This document shows, piece after piece, positions 4,784 to 24,026 of a stretch of DNA of 24,508 nucleotides. The notes under the pieces are model-generated. The model was given only the letters and a program-made list of their open reading frames with translations. It was not told the origin of the DNA and did not search any database. Position numbers and translations under genes: made by a program. Numbering within the stretch: the stretch's first letter is position 1; each line of letters opens with the position of its first letter. Source of the DNA: a virus; IMG/VR virus record IMGVR_UViG_3300048596_000029, positions 1 to 24,508 of that record. The stretch is one strand, 5' to 3'.

Positions 4784-5344
4784 TTGACGACCACGTTACG
4801 AGTGCCCGCACCACCCGCCAGGCCCCACCGAAACCGCAGGCACTCCCTGACCGCCCGCCGTCGGCCCGGTCGGCGGGGCCCGCTATCGACTGTGCTCGCC
4901 ATCGCCGCCGTCCCTCTTGTCGCGTACGGCTTTGTCAACACCACCAGCACCGGCGGCGGCACACCCACCGGTGGGCCAGCCACACCGCCCCAAATCCAGG
5001 TGTGGATCACCGAAGCCGACCAGATCCTGCAAGCGAACGGCACCCCCACCAGCGCCCTCGATGACTCCGCCGTCGCCCTGATCATCCAACACGAGTCCGG
5101 CGGCAACCCCGCGGCGATCAACCGCACCGACTCCAACGCCGCTGCCGGCACCCCCAGCATCGGGCTGATGCAAACCATCGGGCCAACGTTCCAGCGCTGG
5201 GCGGTGCCGGGTCACGGCGACATCCGCAACCCGGTAGACAACATCGCCGCCGGGGTCCGGTACGCCATCGGCCGCTACAAGTCCCTCGGCAACGTCCCCG
5301 GGGTCCGCTCTGTCCGCGCGGGCGGCCCCTACCGCCCGTACTGA
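4784..5344 (+). CDS. Membrane-anchored lytic transglycosylase (SLT/GEWL fold)
   Basis: This encodes 186 residues from TTG 4784, which has AAAGGAG eight bases upstream. An Arg-rich cytoplasmic start is followed by one membrane segment (about 35-52) and a Gly/Thr linker, so the catalytic part lies outside the membrane. The transglycosylase pattern is visible: IIQHESGGNP with the catalytic Glu at 104, then SIGLMQTI (125-132) and NIAAGVRYAIGRY (153-165). Enzymes of this type cut the glycan strand of peptidoglycan. Directly behind the translocase it probably opens the cell wall for a transfer channel; a role in phage entry or lysis is the alternative. Confidence 0.88.
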   Translation: MTTTLRVPAPPARPHRNRRHSLTARRRPGRRGPLSTVLAIAAVPLVAYGFVNTTSTGGGTPTGGPATPPQIQVWITEADQILQANGTPTSALDDSAVALIIQHESGGNPAAINRTDSNAAAGTPSIGLMQTIGPTFQRWAVPGHGDIRNPVDNIAAGVRYAIGRYKSLGNVPGVRSVRAGGPYRPY

Positions 5345-12589: not shown

Positions 12590-13939
12590 ATGCCGGCAGC
12601 GAAGCGCACCAAGACCAACCTGGATGTCGCACCGCGGTACGTCGACTACGTCCCCCTGGCCGACGTGCAACTCGCACCACGCAACGCCAAAGGCCACGCA
12701 GCGGACGCGATCAACAAGTCGATCGGCCACTTCGGGTTCGCGGAACTCCCGCTGCTCGACGAACGCACCGGCCGCCTCGTCGCCGGCCACGGCCGCCACG
12801 AACAGCTGGTCGCCATGCACACCGCTGGCGGCGATCCACCAGACGGCGTACGTGTCGACGACACCGGCACCTGGTTCATGCCCGTCATCCGCGGCTGGGC
12901 CTCCCGCTCCGACGCCGACGCCGACGCCGACGCCTACTTGATCGCCTCCAACCAGCTCACCACCAAAGGCGGCTGGGAAGACCGCGGCCTCGCCGAAATC
13001 CTCGAAGAACTCCAGGACGCACACCTGCTCGAACTCACCGGGTTCGACGACGACGACCTGACCCGCCTACTGGACGACATTGCCAGCGAGGAGCCCGAAC
13101 CGACTGGCGCGGGCGGCGACGCGGACAGCGTTCCCGACGCCCCAGCCGATCCGGTATCCAAACCGGGGGATCTGTGGCTGTTGGGCCGACATCGGCTGCT
13201 GTGTGGCGATGCGACCAACCCGGACGACATTGACCGGGTGCGCGGCGGCGAGGAACCGTCCGTGATCTACACCGATCCGCCTTACGGGATCAGCATCGTT
13301 AAGGGCACAGGGAAGGTAGGCCATCACCCGGGCATGCCGTTCGGTGGGCGCGTCGGTGGCGGCTTGGTCGTTCCGACCACAAAGTACTTGCCAGTCGCGG
13401 GGGACGACACCACTGATGTTGCTGCGGATACCTTTCGTCTGCTCACCACCATGTACCCATCTGCCAGGCACGTTTGGTGGGGCGGCAACCACTATGCAGG
13501 ATCAGCGGGACTTCCTGACGCGTCGTGCTGGCTGATCTGGGACAAAGAGAACAACGGCCACTTCGCTGACGCGGAGTTGGCGTGGACCAACCACCCTGGC
13601 GCCGTGCGGCTGCTACGGCACATGTGGAACGGCATGCTGCGCGCTTCCGAACGCGGCGGTGGCGTTCGGGTTCATCCGACCCAGAAGCCTGTCGCGCTCG
13701 CCGAGTGGGCGTTCAGTGTCGTCGACTCCGACAACGAACGCCGCGTCGTGCTGGACGTCTTCGCTGGTTCCGGCTCCACCCTGATCGCGGCTCACCGGAC
13801 GGATCGGACGGCGCTGCTGATCGAGATGGAGCCGCACTACGTGGACGTGATCTGTCGCCGGTTCCAGGAGTCCACCAGCACGCTGCCGGTCCTTGAGTCG
13901 ACTGGCGAAGAGCATGACTTCACCACCACCGACGACTAG
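12590..13939 (+). CDS. ParB-like domain fused to beta-class DNA methyltransferase
   Basis: This encodes 449 residues from ATG 12590 (GAGGGGAG upstream). Residues 15-130 resemble a ParB/Srx N-terminal domain (VPLADVQLAPRNAKGHA; GRLVAGHGRHEQL at 61-73). A hexanucleotide repeat (GACGCC four times, about 12910-12933) codes Asp-Ala repeats. The methyltransferase part has the target-binding motif TDPPYG (DPPY 229-232) before the AdoMet motif FAGSGST (391-397), which is the beta-class order; DPPY suggests an amino-methyltransferase (adenine N6 or cytosine N4). The likely role is protection of phage DNA from restriction. No cognate endonuclease is adjacent. Codon use in the methyltransferase half looks less GC-biased than the ParB half, hinting at a mosaic origin. 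Confidence 0.9.
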   Translation: MPAAKRTKTNLDVAPRYVDYVPLADVQLAPRNAKGHAADAINKSIGHFGFAELPLLDERTGRLVAGHGRHEQLVAMHTAGGDPPDGVRVDDTGTWFMPVIRGWASRSDADADADAYLIASNQLTTKGGWEDRGLAEILEELQDAHLLELTGFDDDDLTRLLDDIASEEPEPTGAGGDADSVPDAPADPVSKPGDLWLLGRHRLLCGDATNPDDIDRVRGGEEPSVIYTDPPYGISIVKGTGKVGHHPGMPFGGRVGGGLVVPTTKYLPVAGDDTTDVAADTFRLLTTMYPSARHVWWGGNHYAGSAGLPDASCWLIWDKENNGHFADAELAWTNHPGAVRLLRHMWNGMLRASERGGGVRVHPTQKPVALAEWAFSVVDSDNERRVVLDVFAGSGSTLIAAHRTDRTALLIEMEPHYVDVICRRFQESTSTLPVLESTGEEHDFTTTDD

Positions 13940-13962: not shown

Positions 13963-14421
13963 ATGGCGCGCAGGACCACCGCCCAGGCCACGATGTCCGC
14001 CGCTGAACGCCGCGCGCAGGTCGTCCAGCTGAAACGCACCAAACTCAGCTTCGCCGAGATCGGGCGTCGGCTCGGTATCACTGGGCAGCGCGCCGGGCAG
14101 CTCTACCGCGAAGCCCTCGCGCAGGTCCCGCGCATGGCCGTTGAAGAGCACCGGGTGGAAGAGCTTGAGCTGTACGACACGGCGATCCACCAGCTGATGC
14201 GCATCGCCAGCAGCCAAGACCCGACCGTCACCCCTCGCACGAAAGTGGAGGCGTGGACGGCGATCCGTGGGTTCGCGGAGCGGAAGGCGAAGCTTCTCGG
14301 CCTGGACGCGCCGGCGCGGCATGAGGTGATCAGCCTTGACGCTATCGACGCCGAAATCGCGGAGCTCACGCGCGCGCTCGCTGGTGGAGCTGAAGCTACA
14401 GAAACTTCAGCTTCTCCGTGA
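13963..14421 (+). CDS. terS: Terminase small subunit (DNA-binding)
   Basis: This encodes 152 residues from ATG 13963. An N-terminal helix-turn-helix is visible at about residues 25-50 (LSFAEIGRRLGITGQRAGQLY), as in phage small terminases that bind the packaging site. A central helical part (60-115) would serve for oligomer formation, and the C-terminus is acidic and Ala-rich. It directly precedes and overlaps the large terminase by about 86 bases. The call rests on motif plus position. Confidence 0.82.
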   Translation: MARRTTAQATMSAAERRAQVVQLKRTKLSFAEIGRRLGITGQRAGQLYREALAQVPRMAVEEHRVEELELYDTAIHQLMRIASSQDPTVTPRTKVEAWTAIRGFAERKAKLLGLDAPARHEVISLDAIDAEIAELTRALAGGAEATETSASP

Positions 14422-15916
14422 CCTGCAGGCGGAGGCGGAACGCCGCGAACTCGAACGCAACCGGGCCCTGGACCCGTTCGAGATCCTCGACTTCACCCCC
14501 AACCCCGGCCCCCAAGCCCGGTTCCTCGCCCTGCCGGACGAGAACATGGACATCTTGTACGGCGGCGCCGGCGGCGGCGGGAAGTCCCACAGTTTGCTGA
14601 TGCTCGCGATCCGCACCTGTGTGCGGCACCCCGGGATCCAAGTGTTCTGGTTCCGGCGCAGCTTCCCGGAGCTCAACCAGTCGGTGTTGCGGATGCTGGC
14701 CCGCTACGGCTACGCCAAAGACCTCGGTGCCCGGTGGGACGGCTCCAAATACGAACTCCGGTTCCCCGGCGGGGCGTCGCTGACGTTCGCGCACGCCAAG
14801 AACCTCAAAGAAGCGTCCGCGTTGCAGTCCGCCGAGATCAACCTCCTGCTCTTGGACGAACGCACCACCATCCCCCCGGATGTCGTGGACTTCCTGTACA
14901 CGCGGGTGCGGTCCGGTGTGGTCGGTGTGCCCTGTCTCGGGATCAGGTCGGCGAGCAACCCCGGCAACATCGGCCACGGCCGCGTGAAAGCCGGGTATGT
15001 CGACCCGACCGAGTACGGCGAGAAGGAGATCACCGACGCCGCCGGCCGCCGCCGGATCTTCATCCCCGCCAAGGTCAGTGACAACCCGTTCGTCGGCGAG
15101 TACGAAGCCACCCTGGACGGCATCGAGGACCCCGACCTGCGCCGCATGATCAAAGACGGGGACTGGTCCGTGATGCCCAACCAAGCGTTCCCCGACTGGC
15201 GCCGCGACCGAATCATTGTCCCGCCGCTCGAACTGCCGCTGTCCTGGTCGCGGTACATGGGCCTGGACTACGGCTGGACAGCACCGTCGGTGGCGCTGTG
15301 GGCCGCGCGGGACAACGACAGCAGGATGTGGTTCTACCGCGAACTGAGCATGCGGCAAACCCCGGAGCGGGAGCAGGCCCGCCGGATCATCGCCGCCGAA
15401 CAGCCAGGGGAGCGGGTGGTGTGCCGCGCCGCGGACCCGTCCATGTGGGGCAAGTCCGGCAGCGCGTTGCCACCGGCGTCGCAGTTCGCGATCGAAGGGT
15501 GCGCGCTCACCCCGGCGGACAACGACCGGCTCGGCGGCAAAGGCCGCGTGCACACCTACCTGGCGGAAGCCCCGGCGTGTGCCTACCACCGGTCGCTGGG
15601 GTGGGACCTGTGCCCGATGCTGCATGTCCTGGACGGCACCTGCCCGGACCTGGTCCGCACGATGCCGGAACTGCCGCGGGATGAGAACCGCCCGGAGGAT
15701 GTCGACACCGCCGCAGATGATCATTGGTATGACAGCAGCAGGTATTTGCTGCTGTCGGTGGGTGGCGCCGCACGGTTCCACTTCCCCGTCGACCCCGGCC
15801 AGGTCACCACCCTGGACCCGACAGCGACCAACCCGAACCCCTCCACCGAGCCCGCACCGTTGCCGCGCACGTTCGGTGGGTTCCCAGTGCTGGAGGGGGG
15901 GTCCCCGTGGGGGTGA
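14336..15916 (+). CDS. terL: Terminase large subunit (packaging ATPase and nuclease)
   Basis: This encodes 526 residues from TTG 14336, preceded by GAGGTGA; GTG 14384 (residue 17) is an alternative start and has a hairpin just after it (14388-14395 with 14405-14412). Walker A GGAGGGGKS is at 76-84 and Walker B LLLLDE ends at D174/E175. The nuclease part begins at MGLDYGW (Asp311) and continues with further acidic residues (for example DAADDHWYD-like region near 470). It would cut and pump phage DNA into the prohead. Length and order match HK97-type phages. Confidence 0.95.
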   Translation: MTLSTPKSRSSRARSLVELKLQKLQLLRDLQAEAERRELERNRALDPFEILDFTPNPGPQARFLALPDENMDILYGGAGGGGKSHSLLMLAIRTCVRHPGIQVFWFRRSFPELNQSVLRMLARYGYAKDLGARWDGSKYELRFPGGASLTFAHAKNLKEASALQSAEINLLLLDERTTIPPDVVDFLYTRVRSGVVGVPCLGIRSASNPGNIGHGRVKAGYVDPTEYGEKEITDAAGRRRIFIPAKVSDNPFVGEYEATLDGIEDPDLRRMIKDGDWSVMPNQAFPDWRRDRIIVPPLELPLSWSRYMGLDYGWTAPSVALWAARDNDSRMWFYRELSMRQTPEREQARRIIAAEQPGERVVCRAADPSMWGKSGSALPPASQFAIEGCALTPADNDRLGGKGRVHTYLAEAPACAYHRSLGWDLCPMLHVLDGTCPDLVRTMPELPRDENRPEDVDTAADDHWYDSSRYLLLSVGGAARFHFPVDPGQVTTLDPTATNPNPSTEPAPLPRTFGGFPVLEGGSPWG

Positions 15917-17526
15917 GGTCATGGATTCGCCACACATTCCGCAGGCAGGACCCGACCCCCGTCACCGAAGCGGCACCGAACATGCCGACCGCGTCACAGG
16001 TCCGGCGCCTGGGCTACGAGTACGGCATCGCCCTGACCCAGACCGCGTCGCAGTCCGCGCAGGTCGCGGCCAGTAACGAACGCCAACAGGTCTTGAACCA
16101 GCTGCACCAGCTGTACATGACCTGTAACTGGGTGTCAGCGCCGATTGACGTGATCGCCCGCACGGTCACCGCGGGCGGTTTGCAACTCGTGTCCACCCTG
16201 GACGATCCGCCTGACGCGGACGTGCCGGACCCGCCGCAGGTGGTGCGGATCAAACGCCTGATGCGGTTCTGCAACCCCCGCGAGGACATGGTCCAGCTGC
16301 TCCGCAACGCGGTCACGGACCTGCTGCTGTTCGGCGACGCCTACCTCGAAGTGGTCACCCTGCTGGGCGAGCCGGTCGCCCTGTACACCCTGGACGCCAC
16401 CACCATGACCGTCCTGTCGGACGAGCACGGCGAAGTGTCGGGGTACGTGCAGGACGTCGACGGTTTGCGGTCCGCGACGTTCGCCCCTGAGCAGGTCATT
16501 CACATCAGCTTGGATGCCCCGCGTGGTGGTTTGTATGGTGTCGGCCCGGCGCAGAAGATGTTGCTGCCGGCGACCGCGTGGCTGTTCACCATGGCGACGA
16601 TCAAGGAGTGTTTCCGGCGGGGGGATCCGCCCCGGATCCACGTCGACCTGGCACACCTGCAGGACACTGAGGTGCAGAAGTGGCGGGAGCAGTACAAGGT
16701 CTTCAACCTGGGTCCGAAAGCGGTTGGGACCCCGGTCGTCACCACCGGTGGCGGTCAGGTCGGTGTGCTGGACCCGCGCAAGGTCACGGACTATCTCGAC
16801 ACAGCCCGGCAGTTGCGGGACGAGTTGATCTCCGGGTTCGGTACCCCGCCCGCGAAGCTGGGAATCATCGAAACCGGGAACCTCGGCAGCGGTAGCGGTG
16901 AGGCGCAGGACAAGACGTTCCGGGTGAACACGATCATCCCCATCGCCGCGCTGCTGCTGGAGAAACTCAACTACCACCTCGTGCAACTAGGGTTCGCCGT
17001 CGAGGATTGGCAGTTCCAGTTCGCGGAGATCGACATGCGCGACTCCAAGATCGTGGAAGAGATCCGCGACATGCGGCTGCGCAACGGCTCCTACACCCTC
17101 AACCGGTACCGCGACGAGATCGGCGAACCCGCTGTCGACGGCGGCGACGTCCCGATCCTCGTCGACCGGCAAGGCGTCACGACCTGGGACGACATGGAAG
17201 ACATGTCCCGCGCCACCGTCGGTCACCTCGCGGCCGGCCTGTCAGCGGCTGGGCTCACGGCCTACGTGCCGGGCCTACCGGAACCCGACCGGCCCGACCC
17301 GCCGCCGATGCTGCCCCTGCACATGCTCGGCCAGCAGCCGACGCCGCCAGGGGACCCGGAAGACAAACCAGGCGCCGCGAAAGACGCCACCCCAGGTAAG
17401 CCACCCATCGAGTCCCGGCTCGGCCGCGACCAAAGGGTCCTGTCGGAGGCGTGGCACCGCGCCTACCGTGCACGCCGCAAGCAAGCCCTGCGAGACCTGC
17501 CCGAACGCGAGAAGATCCCAGCATGA
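15907..17526 (+). CDS. Portal protein
   Basis: This encodes 539 residues from GTG 15907, with a strong purine-rich RBS (GGAGGGGGG), overlapping the terL stop by 10 bases. Features of the HK97-type portal family are visible: NWVSAPIDVIARTV near 75-90, LLLFGDAYLEVV near 140, EQVIHISLDAP...GLYGVGP near 195-220, and a region with FGTPPAKLGI near 315. The last 100 residues are Pro-rich, then basic. The portal forms the ring through which DNA is packaged and to which the neck attaches. It sits in standard order between terminase and head genes. Confidence 0.93.
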   Translation: MGVRSWIRHTFRRQDPTPVTEAAPNMPTASQVRRLGYEYGIALTQTASQSAQVAASNERQQVLNQLHQLYMTCNWVSAPIDVIARTVTAGGLQLVSTLDDPPDADVPDPPQVVRIKRLMRFCNPREDMVQLLRNAVTDLLLFGDAYLEVVTLLGEPVALYTLDATTMTVLSDEHGEVSGYVQDVDGLRSATFAPEQVIHISLDAPRGGLYGVGPAQKMLLPATAWLFTMATIKECFRRGDPPRIHVDLAHLQDTEVQKWREQYKVFNLGPKAVGTPVVTTGGGQVGVLDPRKVTDYLDTARQLRDELISGFGTPPAKLGIIETGNLGSGSGEAQDKTFRVNTIIPIAALLLEKLNYHLVQLGFAVEDWQFQFAEIDMRDSKIVEEIRDMRLRNGSYTLNRYRDEIGEPAVDGGDVPILVDRQGVTTWDDMEDMSRATVGHLAAGLSAAGLTAYVPGLPEPDRPDPPPMLPLHMLGQQPTPPGDPEDKPGAAKDATPGKPPIESRLGRDQRVLSEAWHRAYRARRKQALRDLPEREKIPA

Positions 17527-17738
17527 CACGCCAACCAGTACCAGTAGATCTGGAGAAAGACAGCCTGCTGTGGCTGATCAACCGGGTCGTCTTCCATCCC
17601 CGCGGCTACGCACTCACCTACGACCCAGAGACCGGCGAGTTCACGCTGCTCGGCGATGGGACTGAACCATGGGTGTTCGCAAACTTCGGCGCCGGTGAGG
17701 CACACCACCTGCAGCGGACGCGGGAGCTCATGCCATGA
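17523..17738 (+). CDS. Small hypothetical protein after portal
   Basis: This encodes 71 residues from ATG 17523, overlapping the portal stop (ATGA). It has helix- and strand-like stretches (DSLLWLINRVVFHPRG; ALTYDPETGEFTLLGDG). No family was recognised. Small accessory genes between portal and head genes in phages often act on the host rather than in the virion; its end overlaps the start of the Tad2-like gene, so joint expression is likely. Confidence 0.65.
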   Translation: MTRQPVPVDLEKDSLLWLINRVVFHPRGYALTYDPETGEFTLLGDGTEPWVFANFGAGEAHHLQRTRELMP

Positions 17739-18175
17739 CGGGCCACCCGACCAGGGCCGCCGACGCCGCACCGTTCACCCCTGGCGTTGTACCCGGCGAA
17801 CCATTGCCCAACCAGGACCAGGAGGTGACTGATGGACCCGGGGCACCCGACCAGGGCGCAGGACGTGCAAGCCCTGATCGCCAAGAGGATCGACTGACCG
17901 GGTTCGGTCCCGCGCTCGACGCACTGAAAGCCGGCCGGGCGGTCACCCGCCACAGTTGGGATGGGCTGCAGGGGACAACCGTGTGGCTCGTCCTCGTGCC
18001 CGGCTCCCGGGTCACCGTCGAGGCCGGGCGCCCGCTCGCCGTGGCGGCACCGCACATGATCGGGCAACCCTTCAACTACGGCACCCACATCGATCGATTC
18101 GACGCTGGTGTCCTGGCGCCGTGGGCACCCACCACCGCAGACCTGCTCGCTGACGACTGGTGGACCATCCCCTAA
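17735..18175 (+). CDS. tad2: DUF2829/Tad2-like protein, candidate Thoeris anti-defence
   Basis: The frame is 146 residues from ATG 17735. Residues 57-146 match the DUF2829 layout: FGPALDALKAGRAVTRHSWDG, VWLVLVPGS (83-91), THIDRFD (117-123) and WAPTTADLLADDW (130-142). Tad2, the characterised member, binds the cyclic ADP-ribose signal of Thoeris defence and so prevents abortive infection. The first 55 residues are Pro/Gly-rich and unlike the family, so the start is uncertain: GTG 17825, or CTG 17894 overlapping the stop of a 21-codon frame with a strong RBS, are alternatives. The family call is good; activity here is inferred. Confidence 0.8.
   Translation: MTGHPTRAADAAPFTPGVVPGEPLPNQDQEVTDGPGAPDQGAGRASPDRQEDRLTGFGPALDALKAGRAVTRHSWDGLQGTTVWLVLVPGSRVTVEAGRPLAVAAPHMIGQPFNYGTHIDRFDAGVLAPWAPTTADLLADDWWTIP
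17832..17897 (+). CDS. 21-residue ORF with strong RBS overlapping the Tad2-like gene
   Basis: ATG 17832 has AGGAGGT five bases upstream, stronger than most sites here. The product MDPGHPTRAQDVQALIAKRI plus Asp is in a different frame from the Tad2-like protein and stops at the point where the DUF2829 domain begins. Its HPTRA segment repeats that of the frame starting at 17735, because CACCCGACCAGGGC occurs at 17744-17757 and exactly 100 bases later at 17844-17857. It may be a leader peptide that couples translation, or a leftover of a duplicated gene start. Confidence 0.4.
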   Translation: MDPGHPTRAQDVQALIAKRID

Positions 18176-18234
18176 CTGGGGCCCGCCGCACCCTGTCACC
18201 TCCCCAACCCTGCACACGGAAAGGCGGGCGCGTT

Positions 18235-18930
18235 GTGTCCGGCGACCAGATCCCCCTCGTCACCAACAGGTCCAACTCGGGCGCGGCCATCGCAGACACG
18301 CTCGTAGCCACCCAGTCCGCCACCGCCCCCGTCATCACCCTGACCAACCAAGGCACGGCCCCCGGCACCCCATCCGGTGGGGACGTGCTCTACGCCACCT
18401 CAGCGGGTGTGTTGACCTACAAGAACCCGCAGGGCCTCGTGTCCACCCTGGTCGGCTCCCAAGGCGGCCTGACCGCAACCACGACCGTCGCGACCACTAC
18501 GGCCGCGACCGCGCTGCAGTCCCTGGCCATCCCCGCCGCCGACGCCATCGCAGGCGCCGTATACCGGCTGGTCGGGTGGGGCGTCTACTCCGACACCGGC
18601 ACACCCACCCTGGCGTTCACCTCAACATTCGGGGCCACCGGTATCGCCGCGGTTCCTGCGGTCACCCTCGGGTCCGGGGTGTCCAACGTCCCGTTCCGGT
18701 ACGAGGCGACCCTGGACTTCTACACGACCACCACAGCCATGGGCAGCATCCAGCTGTCACTCGGCACCTCGGCCAGCACCAACGCCGCAAGCCTGTTCGT
18801 GTCCACCCCGACCGCAGCCGTCACGGTGGGTGTCACGGCGCAAGCGTTCGCCGTCAACGTGACCTGGTCCGCGTCATCCGCGTCGAACACGATTTCTTTG
18901 CTCGGTGGCTACTCGGAACGCGTCGCCTAA
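18235..18930 (+). CDS. Beta-rich Thr/Ala protein, candidate minor structural protein
   Basis: This encodes 231 residues from GTG 18235 (GGAAAGG upstream). It is rich in Thr, Ala, Ser and Val with alternating strands. LYATSAGVLTYKNPQGLVSTL near residue 55-75 resembles the linker found in many phage fibre and tail-associated proteins. The C-terminal 140 residues look like a single beta-sandwich (VYRLVGWGVYSDTGTPTLAF, FRYEATLDFYTTTTAMGS). It sits between the anti-defence gene and the MuF-type gene. A head decoration or fibre role is plausible; no family could be fixed. Confidence 0.65.
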   Translation: MSGDQIPLVTNRSNSGAAIADTLVATQSATAPVITLTNQGTAPGTPSGGDVLYATSAGVLTYKNPQGLVSTLVGSQGGLTATTTVATTTAATALQSLAIPAADAIAGAVYRLVGWGVYSDTGTPTLAFTSTFGATGIAAVPAVTLGSGVSNVPFRYEATLDFYTTTTAMGSIQLSLGTSASTNAASLFVSTPTAAVTVGVTAQAFAVNVTWSASSASNTISLLGGYSERVA

Positions 18931-18968
18931 CCAGGTGGTGGTGCCGTGGTGCCAGCTACAGTCACCAG

Positions 18969-19061
18969 GTGAAGCTGCTGTTCGTGGGGGTGGTCGGGCT
19001 GTACGCGATCGTGATCGTGGGCGCGCCGATGTGGGTGGAACTCGTGCGGTTGTTTCAGTGA
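18969..19061 (+). CDS. Possible 30-residue single-span membrane peptide
   Basis: GTG 18969 opens 30 codons: VKLLFVGVVGLYAIVIVGAP followed by MWVELVRLFQ, one membrane segment. The upstream ribosome site is weak. It lies in the short gap between the structural candidate and the minus-strand tRNA-like gene. The frame is also open upstream, so coding status is uncertain. Confidence 0.35.
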   Translation: MKLLFVGVVGLYAIVIVGAPMWVELVRLFQ

Positions 19062-19063
19062 AG

Positions 19064-19124
19064 TGGCGGGTGGGACCGGATTCGAACCGGTGACCCGGGG
19101 CTCTAGCCACTGAGCTACCCACCC
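19064..19124 (-). tRNA. tRNA-like gene lacking the anticodon arm
   Basis: Read on the minus strand, the 7-bp acceptor stem is perfect (GGGTGGG / CCCACCC), followed by T8 A9, a perfect D arm (GCTC-AGTGGCTA-GAGC), then only eight bases (CCCGGGTC) where about 22 are normal, then a perfect T arm (ACCGG-TTCGAAT-CCGGT), discriminator G and an encoded CCA. The whole is 61 bases. No anticodon stem-loop can be formed, so it cannot decode. It may be a tRNA gene with a precise internal loss, or a tRNA mimic that still serves as a substrate for tRNA enzymes. It is opposite to the flanking genes. Confidence 0.8.
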
Positions 19125-19147
19125 CGCGTCAGCAAGTGTAGGCGGGG

Positions 19148-20665
19148 GTGGCGGTTGTGCCCGGCTGCATGGTCGCCCTCTACCCGCCTGCCGAGACCGC
19201 GAACCTGCTGTGCCGTGCGGACGGGGAACCGGTCGGCGACCTGCATTGCACGGTCGCCTACCTCGGGTCCGCCGACGACGTGGACCTGGAAGCCGTCCTC
19301 GCCGCGGTCACGCCGCTCGTGGGGCGGCCCCCGGTCGAAGCGGTGATCTCGGGGCATGGCCGGTTCACCGGCGGCCCGGATGGGGATGTGCTGGTCGCGT
19401 TGGTCGACGCGTCGGCATTGGAGCAGCTCCGGCGGGACGTGGTAGACGCGCTCACCGGGGCGGGCATCAAGATCCCTGCGGAGCACGGCTACACCGCGCA
19501 CGTCACCCTCGCCTACCTCCCGGAAAGCACGCCGTCCGGTGTTCACCGCATGCCACCCATGGAGGTGTCGTTCGGGGCGTTGACGGTCAAGCACGGCGAC
19601 AACCGGATCGATCTCCTGTTCGGGGGTGACCCGGCCGCGGCCGAAGCGATCGCACCGTACGCCCGTACCGCATACGCGCAAGGGTGGGCCGCGTCCGGCG
19701 GCCCCATGACAGACACGGTCCGCGCGGGATGCGTCGCCGCGGTCGAGAACGCGATCGACCACGCCGGTGACCCGGCCATCCTCGAAGTCACCCTCCGCCT
19801 CGGCCACCTCGAAGGGACCTGGGCCGCCGTCTACGACCGGCGGGAACGACTCGCCGCGAAACACATCACGGCGGTCGCCGCGGCGTGGCGGTCCGCGGCC
19901 CGGCGCCTGGACCTGTCGGTGGCGATCGCCCGATACCGGGCATCGATCGGCCTCACCGAAACCGCCGACGACCAGGCGGCGAAAGACCACCGGAAGATGG
20001 TCGCCAAAGCCATCGCCAACGCCGTCCTCTACGCCATCGCCTCCGCCGAGGCCGCGTCACCCGCAGCGCGGGACCCGGTGATCACCGCGTTGGCGGACGC
20101 GTTGAAAGACGCCCAAGCCGAGGGGTGGGCCGCCGCGGTCGCGGTGTCCGCGGACCGGGTCGGCCTGATCGGCATCGACTTCGACCTCGCGTTCCAGGAC
20201 GCCTGGGACGCCCTCGGTGACCTCGGCGTGTATTGGGCGGACGCCGCCGGATGGTTGGGGGAGATCACCAAAGGCCTCACCCACGACCTCGGCACCGTCC
20301 TCGCGCGCCTCGGCCAGGAACGCGCCAGCTACAGCGACATGCTCGACGAGGCCGAACAGATCCTGACCGGGGTTGATCTCGGCACCGTCTCCACGGTCGT
20401 CGATATGGCCATGGCCCAGTCCTTCTCGCGCGGCGCACTCACCCTCTACCAGCGTGAAGGCGTCCAAACCGTCGACTACATCACGGCGGGCGGCGCACGG
20501 GTGTGCCCGCGCTGTGAGGACTACGAGGCGAAGAACCCGTGGCCCATCACCGACGTCCCGTCACCGGCCGTGCATCCGCATTGTCGCTGCGTGCTCGCCG
20601 CATCCAATCCGCTGGAAGCGCTCGACACGCTCACTGCCTACGCCACCGGAGGAGGCGCGACGTGA
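19148..20665 (+). CDS. 2H phosphoesterase domain fused to MuF-type minor head protein
   Basis: This encodes 505 residues from GTG 19148 (GTG 19157 also possible). Residues 1-160 are a 2H phosphoesterase (LigT/CPDase-like) domain, with the two catalytic motifs H33-C-T35-V in LHCTVAYLG and H118-V-T120-L in YTAHVTLAYLP. A long helical middle (180-440) leads to the MuF-type C-terminus: VCPRCEDYEAKNPWPI (Cys453, Cys456) and HPHCRCVL (476-482), the metal-binding end typical of SPP1 gp7/Mu F head proteins. 2H enzymes open cyclic or 2'-5' phosphodiester bonds; MuF proteins are built into the head and can enter the cell with the DNA. An injected nucleotide-cleaving enzyme is the inference. Confidence 0.88.
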   Translation: MAVVPGCMVALYPPAETANLLCRADGEPVGDLHCTVAYLGSADDVDLEAVLAAVTPLVGRPPVEAVISGHGRFTGGPDGDVLVALVDASALEQLRRDVVDALTGAGIKIPAEHGYTAHVTLAYLPESTPSGVHRMPPMEVSFGALTVKHGDNRIDLLFGGDPAAAEAIAPYARTAYAQGWAASGGPMTDTVRAGCVAAVENAIDHAGDPAILEVTLRLGHLEGTWAAVYDRRERLAAKHITAVAAAWRSAARRLDLSVAIARYRASIGLTETADDQAAKDHRKMVAKAIANAVLYAIASAEAASPAARDPVITALADALKDAQAEGWAAAVAVSADRVGLIGIDFDLAFQDAWDALGDLGVYWADAAGWLGEITKGLTHDLGTVLARLGQERASYSDMLDEAEQILTGVDLGTVSTVVDMAMAQSFSRGALTLYQREGVQTVDYITAGGARVCPRCEDYEAKNPWPITDVPSPAVHPHCRCVLAASNPLEALDTLTAYATGGGAT

Positions 20666-22655: not shown

Positions 22656-24026
22656 ATGACCACCGAGCTCGAAGAGGCTCTCACCACCGCCGCGACCGTC
22701 GGCCCCCTGATCCCGAAGGTCATTGACCCGATTCTCCTGGAGTACCAGCGCAGGTACGCCCCGCTGCTGGCGGCGATCCCCACGAAGCAGTGGAACTCGA
22801 CGCAGTACTTCTTCAACCGGCGCGTGACCCGGCCGGACTCGGGTGGTGTCACCGACGGTGGCGCACGCCCGATCGGCAACAGCACCTATGAGCAGGCGAG
22901 CTTCAACATCCGCCTGTTCCAGGCCGTCGGGTCGGTGACCGGGTTCGCGCAGACCGTCACGCGGGACATCGTCGGCGACCTCCGGCAGCTGGAACTCGAC
23001 GGCACATTCGCGTCCATGCTGTGGACGCTGGAAAACAGCATCGTGTGGGGCAACGACGGCGCGACCGCCAACGGGCTTTACCCGATCTGCTCCGGCCTGG
23101 ACTACCTCGTGTCGAACTGGACGGCCGGTTCGGGCAGCCTCAACTACGTCAACGCTGTTGACCTGGCGGGCGCGAACTTCGCCCTCAAGCACCTCGACCA
23201 GCTGATCGACCTGGTGGAGACCAACGCGGGCATGCCGATCAACGGGCCCGGCTGGATGTTCGTCATGTCCCCGCGCATGAACAGCGCGGTCGGCCAGCTG
23301 CTGCTGAACCAGCAGCGGTTCCAGGCCCCCACCGTCACCATCGGCGCAGGCCTGAACGTCCCGACCTACCGGGACATCCCCATCTCCAAGACCTCGTTCC
23401 TCTCCCCGCGGACGAACCAGATGGGCACCGTCACCACCGCGACGTCCACCACCGGGGGAACCCTGGCGGCGGCGACGTACTACTACCAGGTAGCGCCGGT
23501 CGTAGCCCGCTTCGGGGAGATCTCCGCGTCCACCGAGGTGTCACAGACCACCACCGGCACCACCAGCACGGCAACCCTGTCGTTCTCCACCCCGACGAAC
23601 CTGCCGGACGGTGCGACACCGGTGCTGTACAAGGTTTACCGCAGCACCGCGACCACCACGGAAACCCTCGTCGGTGTTGTGGACGCGTTCGACACCACCG
23701 GTGTCGCCGTCACGTCGATCATCGACACGGGCACCAACCTGCAAACCAACAGTGCCGGCAACACCGGCCCGACCGTGTACCAGGGCGGCAACACGGGTGC
23801 GAAACCGCGGACGGTCACCAACCCGCTGGAAGACATCTACCTCGTCCCCCGCGACCCGAGCTTCCTTGTGCGCCCGTACACGCGGGACATGCAGGTCGTG
23901 CCCCTCGCAGCCACCACCACCAGCCCGGACTCACTTCCATTCGCCGTGCTGACGGACACTTGCCTGGCAGTTCGGGGCCCGAAATTCGTGGGCCGTATGA
24001 GCCGGGTGGTCGCGAACCTTTCGTAG
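22656..24026 (+). CDS. HK97-fold major capsid protein with inserted FN3/Ig-like domain
   Basis: This encodes 456 residues from ATG 22656. Residues 1-250 and 365-456 read as one HK97-type capsid protein: VIDPILLEYQRRYAPLLAAI near the start, PGWMFVMSPRMNSAVGQLLL near 200-217, and IYLVPRDPSFLVRPYTRDMQ near 394-413. Between them (about 257-362) lies a Thr-rich module with GTLAAATYYYQVAPVVARFG and PVLYKVYRS, the strand pattern of fibronectin-III/Ig-like domains. Such inserts usually stick out of the capsid surface. No basic delta-domain is obvious at the N-terminus, fitting the separate scaffold region of the protease gene. The RBS is weak for such an abundant protein. Confidence 0.9.
   Translation: MTTELEEALTTAATVGPLIPKVIDPILLEYQRRYAPLLAAIPTKQWNSTQYFFNRRVTRPDSGGVTDGGARPIGNSTYEQASFNIRLFQAVGSVTGFAQTVTRDIVGDLRQLELDGTFASMLWTLENSIVWGNDGATANGLYPICSGLDYLVSNWTAGSGSLNYVNAVDLAGANFALKHLDQLIDLVETNAGMPINGPGWMFVMSPRMNSAVGQLLLNQQRFQAPTVTIGAGLNVPTYRDIPISKTSFLSPRTNQMGTVTTATSTTGGTLAAATYYYQVAPVVARFGEISASTEVSQTTTGTTSTATLSFSTPTNLPDGATPVLYKVYRSTATTTETLVGVVDAFDTTGVAVTSIIDTGTNLQTNSAGNTGPTVYQGGNTGAKPRTVTNPLEDIYLVPRDPSFLVRPYTRDMQVVPLAATTTSPDSLPFAVLTDTCLAVRGPKFVGRMSRVVANLS

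Follow-up and report, generated by a model that had tools for sequence, protein, structure and literature searches.

Phage head proteins that carry a 2H phosphoesterase domain have been described before. Fusions of 2H domains to MuF or portal proteins were reported by Iyer et al. 2017 (PMC5512222), who suggested RNase action or the degradation of counter-invader nucleotides as their function; no association of these versions with RNA ligases is reported there. Iyer et al. 2022 (PMC9503650) took the fusions to suggest packaging, injection and the countering of nucleotide signalling. The core idea considered here, a virion-borne 2H enzyme directed against nucleotide-signalling defence, is therefore not new, having been published in 2017 and 2022; we found no experimental test of it in the literature searched. 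Among 2H enzymes that act on defence signals, the anti-CBASS nuclease Acb1 has a C-terminal lid with aromatic base-stacking residues (W147, E141 of FBB1) (PMC9117128). New here are three observations. Members of a single MuF family that have the 2H domain and members that lack it occur in phages whose capsid proteins are about 75% identical; no 2H copy has lost either HxT motif; and related 2H domains are also found on portals, XkdF and Mu-I proteases and capsid proteins.

The window, by which we mean the whole stretch of DNA analysed, is one 24.5-kb IMG/VR virus record. It contains a 505-residue reading frame with a GTG start at 19148, the true start possibly lying a few codons downstream (Table 1). 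The first-pass annotation had described two HxT motifs and a MuF-type Cys/His end in one frame, and all three were recovered in that frame, with the HxT motifs 85 residues apart. The head operon runs in the order terminase, portal, DUF7415 gene, Tad2-like gene, 256-residue ORF, 2H–MuF fusion, DUF6582 ORF and major capsid protein. The DUF6582 ORF between the fusion and the capsid gene has a weak head-protease match, and the fusion gene sits between the portal and the protease/capsid genes, which is the position of a MuF gene. PADLOC gave no match among the window proteins.

Table 1 Features of the window and of related loci (positions are those of the window unless a locus is named).
Feature	Position	Strand	Evidence or remark
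Lytic transglycosylase gene, upstream of head operon	4784-5344		SLT, E 2.2e-12
Strong palindromic stem-loop	5380-5422	+	weak mraW RNA motif likeness, 27.7 bits, below gathering score
DNA methylase gene, upstream of head operon	12590-13939		PF01555 E 3.3e-15
Terminase	14336-15916		head operon
Portal protein	15907..17526	+	PF04860 E 6.7e-24
Portal–MuF cargo interval	17527-19147
Tad2-like gene	17735..18175	+	PF11195 E 1.8e-12, 48 versus cut-off of 25 bits; in portal–MuF cargo interval
tRNA-like gene without anticodon arm	19067..19124	-	Rfam RF00005 46.7 bits; counterpart in L088
2H–MuF fusion ORF, 505 aa	19148..20665	+	full-length relatives L088, L007, L008, L091-L096, L105
N-terminal 2H phosphoesterase domain, residues 1-165	19148..19642	+	PF13563 and PF02834 above cut-off; AF2; Foldseek
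First HxT motif (LHCT, H33/T35)	19241..19252	+	invariant in 71 aligned 2H domains; on strand 34-41 of AF2 model
Second HxT motif (H118/T120)	19499..19507	+	invariant, partly selected by retrieval pattern; on strand 118-124
Helical middle region, residues 166-437	19643..20458	+	also present alone, without 2H, in L097-L104 and L106-L111
MuF-type Cys/His motif CPRC...HPHCRC, residues 453-481	20504..20590	+	invariant columns in alignment; hhalign to MuF 90%
Major capsid protein	22656..24026	+	phrog_752 E 1.5e-29; 67-79% identical in most family members
HAD_SAK_2 (Swiss Army Knife RNA-repair type) phosphatase gene	L095 6323-6724; L105 6458-6874	- (both)	PF18143
tRNA-like counterpart, directly upstream of 2H–MuF	L088 6256-6315	-	Rfam 46.2 bits
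Further armless tRNA-like genes	L164 2781-2838; L172 7793-7850	+ (both)
Portal–2H fusion, Streptomyces albipurpureus, prophage-like	L087 7585-10191
2H and Walker A motif in one chain	L081 4662-6338; L033 930-5618

The N-terminal domain almost certainly has the 2H fold, as the first-pass annotation had claimed. Residues 32–129 match 2_5_RNA_ligase2 (PF13563; E 1.5e-10, 41.8 bits against a cut-off of 27) and residues 89–133 match LigT_PEase (PF02834; E 3.3e-6, 27.6 bits against a cut-off of 23.3). An AlphaFold2 model of residues 1–171, made with an alignment of 71 sequences drawn from the fetched loci only, has a pLDDT of 93.7 and a pTM of 0.88, and the HxT/HxT tetrad is intact. Its residues, H33 and T35 in LHCTVAYLG and H118 and T120 in YTAHVTLAYLP, are invariant together with F73 across an alignment of 71 diverse 2H domains. 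Because most of these rows were retrieved by a pattern spanning the second HxT motif, the first motif is the sole unbiased test of conservation for them. Both motifs are also kept in the rows fetched through the MuF part (L088, L091, L094, L095, L096 and L105) and are intact in every 2H–MuF copy. A comparison of L091 with L092 indicates purifying selection on both parts of the protein (dN/dS about 0.07 for 2H and about 0.10 for MuF). The domain is very probably an active 2H enzyme.

In a Foldseek search of the PDB, the top match to this model is the Deinococcus radiodurans CPDase (drCPDase; 5h7e, E 1.9e-8, TM 0.66). Further matches are Thermus thermophilus TT0787 (1iuh, E 4.7e-8), Escherichia coli LigT (5ldm, E 1.6e-6), viral 2'-5' phosphodiesterases (4ye2, E 7.8e-6), the Burkholderia phage BCSR5 phosphodiesterase (9q2y, E 7.8e-6), Acb1 (7t27, E 2.4e-5, TM 0.51) and, weakly, Usb1 (5v1m, E 1.6e-3); a PDB sequence search gave no useful match. 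As the best matches are CPDases, the enzyme is nearer to LigT/CPDase than to Acb1, the profile of which (PF23474) scores 14.7 bits, far below its cut-off of 27. The comparison with Acb1 and LigT that had been proposed as a check thus upholds the 2H fold and places it close to LigT/CPDases, and a particular kinship with Acb1, which gives the weaker match, is not supported.

The C-terminal part is, on its sequence profiles, a MuF-type minor head protein. The assignment takes this form because matches of a full-length model (pLDDT 89.9), in which long helices and the Cys/His end follow the 2H domain, to solved structures cover the 2H part only. The Cys/His pattern, comprising C453 and C456 of VCPRC and H476, C479 and C481 of HPHCRC, is invariant in 21 family members (alignment columns C92, C95, H115, C118, R119 and C120). 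A profile of the C-terminal part of these 21 members aligns by hhalign with three MuF proteins of Arthrobacter phages, all scoring above the Pfam cut-off (90%, E 1.4e-6), and PHROG head-morphogenesis families match the C terminus of the fusion (E 8e-5 to 1e-3). The Pfam Phage_Mu_F model itself gives 12.7 bits on the fusion ORF, below its cut-off of 29.6, and 21.5 bits on the best family member, L097. We therefore use the label 'MuF-type', since the Pfam score is below the cut-off while the Cys/His pattern, the profile similarity and the gene position fit.

A single-sequence scan of viral contigs with the 505-residue protein found no relatives, its patterns being too specific; alignment queries succeeded, and a scan with a 2H–MuF alignment found 25 loci. 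The 2H domain is carried by L088, L089 (contig of L007), L090 (contig of L008), L091–L096 and L105, L112 being a cut copy of L096. The other loci, L097–L104 and L106–L111, begin at the MuF part with no 2H domain in frame, and the part shared by the family begins in the helical middle region with IxPYARTAYAQGWAxSGGPMT. No PF13563 match was found elsewhere in the records of these MuF-only relatives, among them records of 33, 95 and 103 kb. Capsid proteins are 75–77% identical to that of the window in MuF-only L097, L098 and L102, and 79% and 76% identical in the 2H carriers L088 and L091. When the presence of 2H is mapped onto a tree of the MuF part, five changes are needed; well-supported branches force at least four of them, and a topology that joins all 2H carriers in one clade is rejected (AU p 1.8e-6). 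In one sister pair, L105 with the domain and L101 without it, the MuF parts are 76% identical. Heads with and without 2H are thus closely related and the carriers do not form one clade; judged from these sequences, the 2H domain is therefore an optional passenger, gained and lost, with which head assembly can dispense. The fusion proposed at first reading stands, as a 2H fold with an intact tetrad on a MuF-type protein, inside a head-gene operon and behaving as an accessory.

The passenger itself may also have been exchanged. The nearest relatives of the window in the MuF part are L091, L092, L094 and L096 (52–57% identical), and their 2H domains are only 23–30% identical to that of the window, as against 56% for L088. 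This suggests, short of proof, replacement of a window-type 2H domain in L091, L094 and L096. A tree that keeps their 2H domains with the window type is not rejected (AU p 0.25), so fast divergence stays possible.

Related 2H domains occur on other head proteins. Among 63 distinct 2H ORFs of the viral set, 19 also match Phage_portal, 10 XkdF protease, 5 MuF, 4 Mu-I protease, 3 Portal_Mu and 2 Phage_capsid, a set skewed to head modules because the query domains came from head modules. Two members match Zeta_toxin/AAA_33, probably the two chains with a Walker A motif (L081 and L033). In L013, portal, 2H and MuF are all in one chain. A solo 2H gene adjoins the portal gene in L009, L010 and Brevibacterium phage Cantare (gp9), and such an arrangement is a plausible precursor of the fusion. 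The sole match in a scan of genome contigs is a Streptomyces portal–2H prophage-like locus.

The interval between portal and MuF genes is variable in the window and in relatives L088–L111 (approximately 0.1–3.7 kb), and holds Tad2-like genes, tRNAs, HAD_SAK, dCTP deaminase, an Rv2179c-like exoribonuclease and spike-like proteins. The first-pass annotation had noted a nearby Tad2-like gene, alongside which the 2H enzyme would target a second signalling defence; Tad2 is characterised by sequestering gcADPR. The gene is real, and its link to 2H is weak: Tad2-like genes occur with 2H in the window, L105 and, weakly, L095, and without it in L102 and L104. The link was rejected as non-specific; the Tad2-like gene therefore marks the cargo region and lends no special support to any reading of the 2H domain.

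The gene immediately upstream of the fusion ORF is tRNA-like: it has an acceptor stem of 7 bp, a D arm, a T arm and an encoded CCA, and it lacks the anticodon arm; ARAGORN missed it on the window. The T and acceptor stems of the counterpart in L088 differ in sequence, with pairing kept. The minimum free energy of the window gene is not unusual on its own (z -1.1), so the case for an armless tRNA-like gene is built on the covariance model together with the counterpart in L088. A pattern scan for such genes returned 13 viral contigs, among which L162, L163, L165 and L173 are not clearly armless; further armless tRNA-like genes are found in L164, L172 and L166–L171. In several of these other contigs the gene is in or near head genes, and in L172 and L169 it closely follows a putative major capsid gene.

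We propose the following mechanism. The MuF part would dock at the portal or inside the head, and each particle would for that reason carry copies of the enzyme. The enzyme would then reach the cell interior together with the DNA and be at work ahead of phage gene expression. Most likely it would cleave 2'-linked, 2',3'-cyclic or cyclic oligonucleotide signals without need of a metal ion, and in this way blunt nucleotide-activated defence. The fusion protein is probably present in the virion, and we give its delivery into the cell an even chance. Signal removal, rather than another function, is put forward tentatively, at somewhat less than an even chance, and we favour it over healing of RNA ends. 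For it we count that virion proteins carry the domain as an accessory that has come and gone, and that in most of the records with it no RNA ligase was found; here, calls of absence rest in part on contig fragments, and one search of other 2H-head records matched no genome. Against it we count that the best fold matches are 2',3'-CPDases and not Acb1 or other signal-cleaving enzymes, that RNA-repair-type neighbours are present in two relatives and RNA ligases in two large relatives, and that Tad2-like genes do not track 2H.

The strongest competitor, a serious one though rated less probable than signal removal, is that the domain heals RNA ends. As a 2',3'-cyclic phosphodiesterase it would open the cyclic ends left when an anticodon nuclease or RNase toxin cuts host tRNA, and phage or host enzymes would then religate them. 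The nearest solved folds (drCPDase, TT0787 and E. coli LigT) fit such a role. So do some neighbours: in L095 and L105 the HAD_SAK_2 gene lies between a tRNA array and 2H–MuF, and a tRNA-like gene adjoins the fusion ORF of the window. Both T4-type RNA ligase 1 (Rnl1) and an Rnl2-type ligase are present in the records of L095 (100 kb) and L091 (115 kb), whereas two large 2H-less relatives (103 and 95 kb) lack Rnl1. These counts of RNA-repair genes are small, however, and large phages often carry RNA-repair-type genes. Against healing, HAD_SAK_2 was found in only 2 of 48 records, RtcB is found in none of 14, and a ligase match in neither the window record nor the 54-kb relative G002. Among 29 other 2H-head records, none has Rnl1 and two have PF09414, and no RNA-ligase match was found in four complete isolate genomes (Shrooms, Cantare, Ottawa and Kovu). 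Moreover, tRNA arrays also adjoin 2H-less MuF genes (L101–L103), and a virion without ligase gives a healing enzyme no obvious use. As a general rule for the set, a link between 2H and RNA ligases was rejected on the Rnl1 and PF09414 counts, though two large relatives have ligases.

Two further readings are improbable, and we rank them equally. One is that the domain cuts host RNA after injection in the manner of Usb1, aiding host take-over, as proposed by Iyer et al. 2017 (PMC5512222) by analogy with PBECR–MuF fusions; Usb1 is among the fold matches, but its match is far weaker than those of the CPDases, and no RNA-binding extension was recognised in the protein. The other is that head assembly co-opted the 2H fold as a structural part, its activity being irrelevant. 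That 2H rides on many head proteins would suit this role, but closely related heads do without it and both HxT motifs are intact in all 2H–MuF copies. In the weakest reading, a long shot, a kit for tRNA repair and counter-defence would be split between particle and genome. 2H–MuF would be its end-opening enzyme, brought first by the virion, and the genome would supply the remaining components (tRNAs, a SAK-type HAD phosphatase, RNA ligases, a Tad2-like sponge and the armless tRNA-like RNA), encoded in the same cargo interval or at least in the same genome.

If the preferred reading, virion-borne signal removal, is true, an anti-defence enzyme carried in the head would already be at work when phage genes have yet to be expressed, something out of reach for early-expressed inhibitors. 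The MuF family offers a clean test case, with closely related heads that have or lack the enzyme, and the pairing with RNA-repair-type genes in some relatives points to first substrates worth testing.

Among known systems, the polyvalent 2H–MuF and 2H–portal fusions (PMC5512222, PMC9503650) belong to the same architecture class, with 2H and MuF in one phage late-gene protein; the present family differs in that one MuF lineage exists with and without the domain, and in the RNA-repair-type neighbours of some members. With LigT and the 2',3'-CPDases (PF02834, PF13563; drCPDase, E. coli LigT) the domain of the window shares a common fold, the HxT/HxT motifs and a profile score above cut-off, but it is fused to a head protein and is known from sequence and model. 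Acb1 (PF23474) belongs to the same 2H superfamily and has the HxT/HxT tetrad, whereas it is a stand-alone protein, which the domain of the window is not, and its profile scores the latter below cut-off (14.7 versus 27 bits). The 2H–XkdF protease fusions of Arthrobacter phages (Shrooms gp18 and relatives, phrog_14859) likewise place a 2H domain, 30–36% identical, in the head module and adjoin a separate MuF protein; there the passenger rides on an S78-type capsid protease, here on MuF. Finally, the MuF polymorphic toxins of temperate phages also carry an enzyme domain on a MuF protein, but their effector is C-terminal, whereas the fusion of the window has its enzyme at the N terminus, with no immunity gene identified.
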